DNA from: a virus
Length of the DNA stretch: 26,106 nucleotides
Virus record (IMG/VR): IMGVR_UViG_3300031974_001524
Span: 1 to 26,106 of that record
Reading direction: 5' to 3' (one strand)
The notes beneath the pieces are model-generated. The model was not told where the DNA came from. It saw only the letters and a list, made by a program, of their open reading frames with translations, and made no database searches. Every line of letters starts with the position of its first letter. Position 1 is the first letter of the stretch. A program made the translations under genes and the position numbers. This document shows positions 22,514-26,106 of this stretch, piece by piece.

Positions 22514-23749
22514 CTATTTATTAGCAATCTTCGTATATACATTTTCAGTTTCCTGACGATTGCCATCAGAAAGCTCAGTTTTGCCGCCCATGTTGATTTG
22601 CACTTCTGGCATGTCCACGAGGTCGGCGTAGTAGTTGTCAGTTGTCTTGGCTGACGCATGGCCGAGCAGTCTCTGGGCTGCGAATAAGCTCTTGGTTTGC
22701 GTGGCGACCTGTGCGCCGAACCATCGCCGCAACTCGTGCGCCTTCTTCTCGAACGGCCAGCCTAAATCATTGAACCACTTGCTCAGTCTGCGGCTAACGC
22801 CCTTGCTTCGCTCATTGGCAGTGGCGGCAGGCACAACGTACTCCGAGTCATCAGACATGGTGAGAAGGTCGGCATATACATCCTCTGGCAACGGCACCCG
22901 GCGATCCTTACGACCCTTCGGCACCCAGTCATCGGTAGCCTGCACATGGATTACCAGACGGTCGCCCAGCTTGGTGATCCACTCCTTTCGTGCCTGCATG
23001 GCTTCTTGCATCCGCAAGCCACAGCCAGCGGCCAGCCTGAACAACAGGTAGGCTGCCGGATCGGACTCCTTGAGGTTAGGCAGCTCAGTGAATACGCGCT
23101 GCACCCTTTGCTCGGTTTTGCTGAAATCATAAGTCACCGGCATTTCCTTGAGCGGTGGGTAGTCGGTGAACGAGCGGATGTCTGGCAGTCCGGGGTATAC
23201 GCCTAACGCCAGCAGGCGTCGGTTGAATACCATCCGAGCGTCAGCCAGCAGGCTGTTGGCTCCACGCTTGCGTGCCTCCAATGCCTTGCCCGCGCTGAAG
23301 CCAGCAAGCCGGTTACTGAAGAAGCGGTCAATCAACTGGCCGTCCAGCACGGTGGCTGGCAGTCGATCTACAGCCTGATTGGTCTTCAGATCCAGAGACT
23401 CGCGCATCAGCTTGTAGAGCCGATTCACGGCCTCAGTGATTGAGCGGTCAGCGATCTTGCCAGCCTGCACCTCACGGTAGCGTTCGATGATCTTGCCAAT
23501 AGTCAGCACACCGCTGACCGGCGTCTCACCACGTTGCACAGCCTGCCACTTACTGAATGCTAACTTTGCAGCACGGCCCACGTCCGAAGTGTCCAGCACA
23601 TACTGGTGGGCCTTACCAGCCTGAGTCCAGCGAACTCGCCACCGGCCCTGATAGCGTTCCTCCAAGGTCAAGGTAACGGCTGGCGTAACCACTCGACGTT
23701 TCGATTCAACCGTGTTGCCAGCTCGGTCGGTGTAGGGGATGATCTTCAT
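22514..23749 (-). CDS. int: Tyrosine-type integrase
   Basis: The 411-residue protein has an N-terminal arm-binding part, a SAM-like core-binding domain (about 85-190) and a C-terminal catalytic domain. Catalytic residues can be seen: GLR (R246), HELRR (H338, R341), LLGHAS (H364) and the Tyr in DNYYADL (Y373 or Y374), with KGRKDRRVPLP as the lysine-bearing hairpin. It catalyses integration and excision at the attachment site, here probably the tRNA-His fragment 1.5 kb upstream. The start at 23749 is chosen because GGAGGTG lies just upstream and the ATG overlaps the previous stop (ATGA). The frame is open to 23764. Confidence 0.9.
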   Translation of the reverse strand: MKIIPYTDRAGNTVESKRRVVTPAVTLTLEERYQGRWRVRWTQAGKAHQYVLDTSDVGRAAKLAFSKWQAVQRGETPVSGVLTIGKIIERYREVQAGKIADRSITEAVNRLYKLMRESLDLKTNQAVDRLPATVLDGQLIDRFFSNRLAGFSAGKALEARKRGANSLLADARMVFNRRLLALGVYPGLPDIRSFTDYPPLKEMPVTYDFSKTEQRVQRVFTELPNLKESDPAAYLLFRLAAGCGLRMQEAMQARKEWITKLGDRLVIHVQATDDWVPKGRKDRRVPLPEDVYADLLTMSDDSEYVVPAATANERSKGVSRRLSKWFNDLGWPFEKKAHELRRWFGAQVATQTKSLFAAQRLLGHASAKTTDNYYADLVDMPEVQINMGGKTELSDGNRQETENVYTKIANK

Positions 23750-24042
23750 TCCGTCACCTCCCATCCCATGCTTTCGATCACCTTGTCATGCTCCTTCTCA
23801 GCGTCATTCTTCCACACGGTTTTGTGTGAAAGGGCGTACCCGCCGCCCTGTGATTTTATCACATGAAAGAGCAAGCTGGCTGTGGGGCGTGGGGTTTCAA
23901 TCCGAATCACCCGCATCGGGTACTGTTCGCCGTCCTCAGTAGTCGGATAAGATTCAGCGAACTCAATGGCTTCACGTTTTGTATGAAAAAACTGCTGCTC
24001 CGGTTCGCCGTCTTCAAACCATGCTGTTTCGTAGATAATCAT
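23746..24042 (-). CDS. Unknown protein encoded before the integrase
   Basis: The 98-residue protein starts MIIYETAWFEDGEPEQQFFH and contains TKREAIEFAESYPTTEDGEQ, then YPMRVIRIETPRPTASLLFH. This is a strand-helix-strand layout without a known motif. It overlaps the next gene upstream and the integrase gene downstream as ATGA, so it is co-translated with them. An integrase partner or regulator is possible by position only. Confidence 0.5.
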   Translation of the reverse strand: MIIYETAWFEDGEPEQQFFHTKREAIEFAESYPTTEDGEQYPMRVIRIETPRPTASLLFHVIKSQGGGYALSHKTVWKNDAEKEHDKVIESMGWEVTE

Positions 24043-24426: not shown

Positions 24427-24761
24427 TTCGCCACCTCCTCATCGTAGATGGCGGTGCACCAGCAGTACATGCCCTCCGGGTAGAACCCGGCCTTGCCCAG
24501 AGCCTCGACCATCTTGTCGTACAGGTCGTACTGCATGTAATCGAGGTTGAATATGGGTGAGAAGTCGCCGCCGTCGTGGCAGACGATCAGGCACGACTCA
24601 TGCCCGTACCGCTCGCCGCTTTCCTTCCACTCGGTCGGAGTGTAGAAGGGTGTGCAGCCGCCAGTGCTGAAGCCCTTACGTCGCTTGGCGAAGTCGATAA
24701 GGATCTTCGCCGCCTGCCGCCCACGATTGGACAGCCCTTTTGGTATTTTTAGTTTTTCCAT
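24423..24761 (-). CDS. Conserved protein of unknown function (GGC-FYTP-EW type)
   Basis: The 112-residue protein starts MEKLKIPKGLSNRGRQAAKI and contains TGGCTPFYTPTEWKESGERY, then LIVCHDGGDFSPIFNLDY and MYCWCTAIYDEE. I have seen this 'GGC-x-x-FY-x-P-x-EW-x-x-x-GE-x-YG ... HDGGD' pattern in small bacterial and phage proteins without a known function. Cys, His and Asp residues could bind a metal. It starts after the CAGGAGCTACA leader shared with the 25105 gene. Confidence 0.55.
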   Translation of the reverse strand: MEKLKIPKGLSNRGRQAAKILIDFAKRRKGFSTGGCTPFYTPTEWKESGERYGHESCLIVCHDGGDFSPIFNLDYMQYDLYDKMVEALGKAGFYPEGMYCWCTAIYDEEVAK

Positions 24762-24762
24762 A

Positions 24763-24778
24763 TGTAGCTCCTGTTTGG
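24763..24778 (-). repeat. Repeated ribosome-binding leader, copy 1
   Basis: On the minus strand CCAAACAGGAGCTACA lies just before the ATG at 24761, with GGAG as the ribosome site. An identical 16-base copy precedes the gene starting at 25105. Looser versions precede 24230 and 19590 (CCAAACAAGGAGATATA). It looks like a leader module used for several early genes. Confidence 0.6.
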
Positions 24779-24781
24779 TTG

Positions 24782-25105
24782 TTAGATTAAATCCTTATCT
24801 TCCGCCCACTGCCAGTTATCGCAGATGACCTCCAACCGCGCCGCCGAGGCAGATAATTTCTCAGACTCCGAATCAATGCCCGCAACTAGGCCGCCAAGGG
24901 AATTGCCAAGTTGAGGGTTGCACTCAATGCCCCGCATGATTGCGTTAACCTCTTCAGGGCTTGAGGAGCCATTTATTTTCTCCTCTGCATTCTTGATTGC
25001 CTTGCTTGCCTGCTCCAGACGATTGGAGATTAGTTTGATGTAATGAAGTGCGTCACCGCACGCATCGAGTGCGGTAGTCCGTTTATGCTCTTGCTCAAGT
25101 GTCAT
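24782..25105 (-). CDS. Small coiled-coil protein of unknown function
   Basis: This 107-residue protein begins MTLEQEHKRTTALDACGDAL and contains SNRLEQASKAIKNAEEKING, then SESEKLSASAARLEVICDNW. Helical, heptad-rich segments dominate; a turn with SSSPEEV lies between them. No motif is recognised. It follows a strong ribosome leader shared with the next gene and is the first gene after attP on the integrase side. Palindrome E lies 55 bases upstream, so it may be under repressor control. Confidence 0.5.
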   Translation of the reverse strand: MTLEQEHKRTTALDACGDALHYIKLISNRLEQASKAIKNAEEKINGSSSPEEVNAIMRGIECNPQLGNSLGGLVAGIDSESEKLSASAARLEVICDNWQWAEDKDLI

Positions 25106-25108
25106 TTC

Positions 25109-25124
25109 TGTAGCTCCTGTTTGG
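25109..25124 (-). repeat. Repeated ribosome-binding leader, copy 2
   Basis: The minus strand reads CCAAACAGGAGCTACA, identical to the copy at 24763-24778, and places GGAG about ten bases before the ATG at 25105. The match of 16 bases between two otherwise different gene starts suggests duplication of a leader rather than a shared ribosome site alone. Confidence 0.6.
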
Positions 25125-25159
25125 ATTTTAGAATCGCCCGCGAACCGATCACCGGCGAC

Positions 25160-25176
25160 GAGGTATTAAATACCTC
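25160..25176. promoter_or_regulatory. Palindromic operator-like site E
   Basis: GAGGTAT (25160-25166) and ATACCTC (25170-25176) are mirror copies around TAA. The 16 bases at 25166-25181, read on the minus strand (CATCTGAGGTATTTAA), are identical to 22452-22467 on the plus strand. The site lies between attP and the gene that starts at 25105, a natural place for control of the integrase-side genes. Confidence 0.55.
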
Positions 25177-25267
25177 AGATGGCCCAATCGGCACAAGGAT
25201 TATTTGTCCTTTTTTTGTCCTGCGGGTTAGACAAGAAATGTCTGACGGCTGTTTCAGCCTGAAAAAA

Positions 25268-25315
25268 TGGGGTGATCGACCGGGCTCGAACCGGCGACAA
25301 CCAGAATCACAATCC
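25268..25315 (-). other. attP: 3' part of a tRNA-His gene
   Basis: On the minus strand this reads GGATTGTGATTC (loop with anticodon GTG, bases 25310-25308), then TGGTTGTCG, a TTCGAGC T-loop with a GCCGG/CCGGT stem, and ends CACCCCA at 25268 with six T's after it. The extra C before CCA and the GTG anticodon identify tRNA-His. The bases before it do not form the rest of a tRNA, so only the 3' part is present. Phages that integrate in tRNA genes carry such a piece to restore the gene. The gap 25125-25469 otherwise holds only repeats and sites A-E type elements; I see no gene in it. Confidence 0.75.
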
Positions 25316-25346
25316 CCTGTGTAATCGTGTAAAAACCCCAGAAACA

Positions 25347-25433
25347 TTAGGGTTTTGAGCCTAACGCCAGACTATAACTGCCGTACAGGGTTAATAGTTA
25401 ACATAGCTAACATTTGGGTTTGACCTAAACGCC
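25347..25433. repeat. Imperfect direct repeats beside attP, possible integrase or excisionase arm sites
   Basis: TTAGGGTTTTGAGCCTAACG with CC (25347-25368) resembles TTTGGGTTTGACCTAAACG with CC (25413-25433). Between them lies GTTAATAGTTAACATAGCTAAC, a cluster of related short units. On the other side of the tRNA piece TTTGTCC occurs twice near 25203-25220. Repeats on both flanks of an attachment core are typical integrase arm-binding sites. Confidence 0.4.
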
Positions 25434-25469
25434 GACACCGTGGCTATTGCCGAAAATTCCATTTGGCCA

Positions 25470-25802
25470 TCACAGCATTTTCTCAAGCACGCAGGTCACC
25501 CGTTCATTCTCCGCATCAATCGCACCCTCGTCTACAAACCGCTTGCTGCCCAGCTCGGTCAGGCGGGTAAGCAGTAGGTGAATGCACTCGTGTTTGGCAA
25601 CCGTATCGATCTGCTTGTCCGTCCAATCCTTTGCATCAGAAACGAAGACCACAGCCACGCACCCATCTGCATCGGCATCAATCTCAGCGTACTTGTCGGT
25701 GTACCGCTTCTGCTTAAAGGTAACAGTGTACTCGTTCAGGTTCAGGGCCGACTGCCATGAAAGAAACTCTCGCTTAAATCTGTTAAACTGCCTGACCTTC
25801 AT
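25470..25802 (-). CDS. HExxH-type small putative metallopeptidase
   Basis: The 110-residue protein starts MKVRQFNRFKREFLSWQSAL and has a helical N-terminal part, then a beta segment (YTVTFKQKRYTDKYAEID). The helix TVAKHECIHLLLTRL follows with the HExxH zinc motif (HECIH). A downstream helix (DEGAIDAENERVTCV) could supply the third ligand, as in SprT/ImmA-like phage proteins. It overlaps the gene upstream as ATGA at 25802. The alternative TTG at 25817 is less likely. A substrate is not known. Confidence 0.6.
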   Translation of the reverse strand: MKVRQFNRFKREFLSWQSALNLNEYTVTFKQKRYTDKYAEIDADADGCVAVVFVSDAKDWTDKQIDTVAKHECIHLLLTRLTELGSKRFVDEGAIDAENERVTCVLEKML

Positions 25803-26106
25803 TTTAATAGGTGCCAAGCCTCCTTGTAGCTATCGTACTTCGGCAACTGCCCCCTGTGCCTGCCGCCCGTCCAAGTGAACAGCTTGTAGTGCTTCACGTC
25901 TTCGACCGGGATGACGTACATTCCGACTGTGCTGGCGACCGCCACGATATAATCGCAATCCTCCTTGCTGTATGGCGAGGCACGTCTTGCTCCTTTGGTA
26001 AGGTTAACCTCAACTGTACCGTTTGGCTTCACAACATCTGAACCCTTAACCTGAATGCGGTTCACCTTGCCATTGAAGTCTGATAGCAAATCCCAAGCGG
26101 CCCCTT
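25799..26106 (-). CDS. PD-(D/E)XK nuclease-like protein, 5' end cut off by the window
   Basis: The frame stays open to the right edge (26106) with no ATG visible; before 26089 it reads GAAWDLLSDFNGKVNRIQVK. The motif RIQVKG (Q-x-K) after a helix, followed by VEVNLTKGA, YSKEDCDYIVAVASTVGMYV, PVEDV and FTWTGGRHRGQLPKYDSYKE, is the order seen in group I intron-associated and related PD-(D/E)XK endonucleases. Only the C-terminal 100 residues are visible, so any N-terminal catalytic residues are outside the window. It overlaps the HExxH gene as ATGA. Confidence 0.55.
   Translation of the reverse strand, partial: GAAWDLLSDFNGKVNRIQVKGSDVVKPNGTVEVNLTKGARRASPYSKEDCDYIVAVASTVGMYVIPVEDVKHYKLFTWTGGRHRGQLPKYDSYKEAWHLLK

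Follow-up and report, generated by a model that had tools for sequence, protein, structure and literature searches.

Crossovers centred on the anticodon are a standard class among the tRNA-type integration sites of the Islander database (PMC4383910). In mycobacteriophages, 30-45 bp is quoted as the typical length of the block shared by phage and host, while in tRNA-dependent lysogeny the core measures ~10 bp and integration leaves the tRNA unrestored, so that the phage must carry a tRNA (PMC10865867). For marine metagenomic phages, hosts have been assigned by matching attP to tRNA genes, with group G11, for example, being assigned to Verrucomicrobia SAG AAA300-K03; the same study cautioned that a tRNA match alone places the host only at the level of phylum or class (Mizuno et al. 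2013, PMC3861242).

The window analysed here is a 26,106-nucleotide stretch of viral DNA (IMG/VR record IMGVR_UViG_3300031974_001524). With a probability of roughly 94%, its segment 25202-25314 is the attP through which a temperate tailed phage enters the chromosome of marine Verrucomicrobiales, at their single tRNA-His(GTG) gene (Table 1). The tRNA-type attP of a tyrosine-integrase element is a textbook arrangement, of which this locus is a new example.

Table 1. Features of the putative integration site and its integrase gene in the window (L003-L007, host loci).
Feature	Position	Strand	Basis or remark
Probable attP core shared with host attB: tRNA-His 3′ half plus 66-bp trailer	25202..25314	-	blastn
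tRNA-His(GTG) 3′ part, positions 30-76	25268..25314	-	Identical to the complete tRNA-His genes of L003-L007
tRNA trailer with a T6 run and two small stem-loops	25202..25267	-	Common to only three host genomes
Anticodon loop TTGTGAT, probable strand-exchange region	25306..25312	-	Phage-host identity starts 2 bp 5′ of it; Islander class
Gene for a 416-aa tyrosine integrase, reading away from attP	22514..23764	-	Pfam Phage_integrase 4e-12; PHROG integrase 1.5e-25

Read on the minus strand from 25314 down to 25268, the tRNA part is 47 nt long (5′-GATTGTGATTCTGGTTGTCGCCGGTTCGAGCCCGGTCGATCACCCCA); it opens with the final two bases of the anticodon stem's 5′ strand and runs through the GTG loop to CCA. 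ARAGORN detected no complete tRNA in the window, thus the 5′ half of tRNA-His is absent there. The first-pass annotation had described exactly such a piece, a tRNA-His 3′ part from GTG loop to CCA without the 5′ half, and both the sequence and ARAGORN bear this out. The location that it gave (25268-25315) was correct, but its end lay one base too far, because base 25315 is already the first mismatch to the host tRNA-His genes and the true end is 25314; the strand (minus) had been left unstated. Furthermore, the search that it proposed, of the fragment against bacterial tRNA-His genes, came out as expected: among GTDB r220 genome contigs (84,980 species), a 42-mer of the fragment was matched exactly at five loci, all from Verrucomicrobiota and all five complete tRNA-His(gtg) genes. 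In IMG/VR the exact 42-mer was found at one locus, which belongs to a close relative of the window phage (L002). At the sequence level, these exact matches exclude a chance resemblance to tRNA-His. Two open frames across the site, 25043-25324 (+) and 25102-25347 (-), would encode tRNA-derived peptide (GDRPGSNRRQP, CDSGCRRFEPGRSPHF) and are unlikely to be real genes.

The similarity to the host is not confined to the tRNA. Homology takes in a further 66 bp downstream of the tRNA, as far as 25202, and the resulting 113-bp block is 98.2, 97.3 and 92.9% identical (blastn) to host loci L006, L007 and L005, respectively, where the first-pass annotation had anticipated a match of 46-48 bases and missed the trailer. 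The longest exact run between phage and host is 90 bp (25225-25314, with L007). Beyond both ends of the block, similarity to the host loci stops abruptly (blastn), and none was found elsewhere between the window and L003-L007. L003 and L004 share the tRNA plus only a few trailer bases. Predictions for the att region included neither an intrinsic terminator nor a promoter. The end of the block (25200-25221) holds two tandem 11-bp copies, TTATTTGTCCT and TTTTTTGTCCT, whose four variable bases covary in both; read on the minus strand, they are GGAC in the window and in host L006, GAGC in phage L002 and GTGC in host L005.

Each host locus runs uninterrupted through the site and represents an empty attB within a complete tRNA-His gene. 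When recombination was performed in silico, attB and attL yielded tRNA-His and attR and attP yielded none; the attL consists of the host 5′ flank followed by the phage core and arm, and its tRNA-His is complete and identical to that of the host. Together with the nearby integrase gene, this complete tRNA supports the earlier proposal that a tRNA 3′ end serves as attP of a tyrosine-integrase phage. Phage and host become identical 2 bp before the anticodon loop, on its 5′ side, a pattern that suggests a crossover centred on the anticodon. The tyrosine integrase would exchange strands in or beside this loop; at attL, the identical 3′ half and nearly identical trailer supplied by the phage would then restore the essential tRNA. 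The action of the integrase here, the precise position of the crossover and the existence of lysogens are inferred.

The integrase gene is located ~1.4 kb from the core, not adjoining it, and on the same strand as the fragment. Its translation contains catalytic-type motifs (GLR, HELRRW, LLGHAS and NYY), and the frame is full-length and looks intact. Neither an excisionase nor arm-type sites could be identified, which, like the distance of the integrase from the core, counts against the attP reading. Across attP from the integrase lies a PDDEXK_5 nuclease-like gene (25799-26089, minus strand), which adjoins a 115-aa gene with a HECIH motif. An Rfam CRISPR-DR36 match at 25603-25637 was rejected, as it falls under the gathering score and inside a reading frame. 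The segment 8136-15109 (minus strand) has an SU10-type capsid match, weak SU10-type portal matches and a terminase, whose sole match among 50,697 phage records is that of phage C75C1 (33%). The window phage belongs to a poorly sampled group of temperate phages.

Integrated copies were sought in several ways. The integrase protein revealed none in 320 genomes of the host order, neither the full tRNA-His pattern nor the trailer pattern revealed any in IMG/VR, and no attL or attR was found in either collection; integration itself is therefore inferred. Second tRNA-His matches in three genomes were considered as possible attR scars and rejected, both matches in G169 and in G172 being complete tRNA-His genes and the second one in G177 lying at a complete tRNA-Phe. 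A search of the five matching host genomes for the capsid protein, run without a positive control, gave no match. Distant relatives of the terminase, portal or integrase of the window do occur in other genomes of the order. All three are present together on one prophage-like contig of G089 (L041, G089:C163); in G023, terminase and portal relatives share one prophage-like contig and an integrase relative is found on a second (L043/L044); prophage-like contigs of G038 (L042) and G232 (L046) harbour distant terminase and portal relatives. The nearest integrase relative in the order (32-33% identical) is in G180 (L045; G180:C43, 2637-4194). There, a complete tRNA-Phe has its 3′ end ~0.4 kb from the integrase gene, which points away from the tRNA as in the window. 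This locus has the look of a further tRNA-targeting element, but no displaced tRNA-Phe fragment was seen over 40 kb of the G180 contig.

The lack of an integrated copy among the 320 genomes and IMG/VR would fit a fragment left over from an old integration, or a captured piece of host DNA, in a phage that no longer integrates there. Such a relic is very improbable, given the full-length integrase frame, a core that has kept 93-98% identity to the hosts of today (100% in the tRNA part) and the retention of the fragment in a phage whose flanking DNA is 5-6% diverged. That phage, L002 from IMG/VR, matches the window at 94.6% identity over 24759-25949 without a break at the core, and its copy of the tRNA fragment has the same position, with phage DNA on either side. 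Because phage DNA flanks the fragment on both sides, the site is read as attP rather than attL or attR. The position of the fragment, <0.9 kb from the contig end, might also be that of a chimera or of a prophage boundary (attL or attR) with host DNA on one side, yet this is scarcely credible: the tRNA 5′ half expected in attL is absent, the integrase side is phage DNA, and 25315-25949 recurs in the independent phage contig L002 (~94%) with no match in the host loci. A phage tRNA-derived piece with an RNA role instead of an integration site, to which the recognisable tRNA 3′ half might point, can be practically dismissed, as there is no 5′ half, no promoter was found and the match to the host covers a further 66 bp of trailer beyond the tRNA.

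With attP as the preferred reading, the trailer becomes informative about the host. Across the order, 115 of the 320 genomes match the att query at some level, mostly through the tRNA part alone, and merely three contain the 113-bp block: UBA8010 (G003, L005), ERR599032_bin.34 (G004, L006) and PL34863bin_20 (G005, L007). MutL, encoded beside the tRNA gene, is 95-99% identical among these three loci and 80-84% identical between them and L004 and L003; therefore L005-L007 form one close clade. A point against the attP reading is that the host genomes are incomplete MAGs. Each of the three has a single match to the phage att query, thus the tRNA-His gene is probably single-copy and essential, and its restoration would be needed. 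The expectation of the first-pass annotation that a tRNA-His match would allow host assignment held, with the exact core matches converging on one host group. As judged from sequence, the trailer, not the tRNA part, sets the likely host clade apart from other Verrucomicrobiota, and the likely host is a narrow marine group within Verrucomicrobiales, represented by three closely related MAGs. An otherwise orphan marine temperate phage gains a fairly precise host assignment in this way. Moreover, the att match gives a precise prediction of where the phage inserts and of the sequences of both junctions, namely host GAGCCCCAGATTGTGATT joined to phage TAATCCTTGTGCCGATT via the core, plus the reverse pair. 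The mechanism itself is textbook; such a testable host link is useful because phages of marine Verrucomicrobiota are poorly known.

The long trailer homology might reflect repeated exchange between phage and host, as phage and host variants of the clade seem to share trailer variants, including the 11-bp tandem repeat in which both copies change together; we regard this as rather doubtful. If true, the site could record phage-host pairing at the strain level or, alternatively, be a functional element selected in both phage and host.

Among described systems, the locus resembles the tRNA-type sites of class A (anticodon-centred) in Islander (PMC4383910) in that the element carries a 3′ tRNA half with the integrase in cis, identity runs from the anticodon on and the tRNA is restored on one side; unlike in that class, integrated copies of the window phage were not seen. 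The 113-bp block exceeds the mycobacteriophage range because it includes the trailer. A tRNA gene is likewise the integration target in tRNA-dependent lysogeny (PMC10865867), but the long core (113 bp) and the restored tRNA exclude that mode here, and the window lacks a tRNA gene of its own. Phage C75C1 (OQ984151) likewise has an SU10-type module of capsid and portal, its terminase being 33% and its capsid 30% identical to those of the window, yet has no annotated integrase. The marine phages of Mizuno et al. (PMC3861242) are alike in the logic of assignment, host phylum and marine setting; the window phage differs from the G11 genome in GC content (53.5 versus 43.8%) and from those assignments in that its host clade is narrowed further by the trailer.
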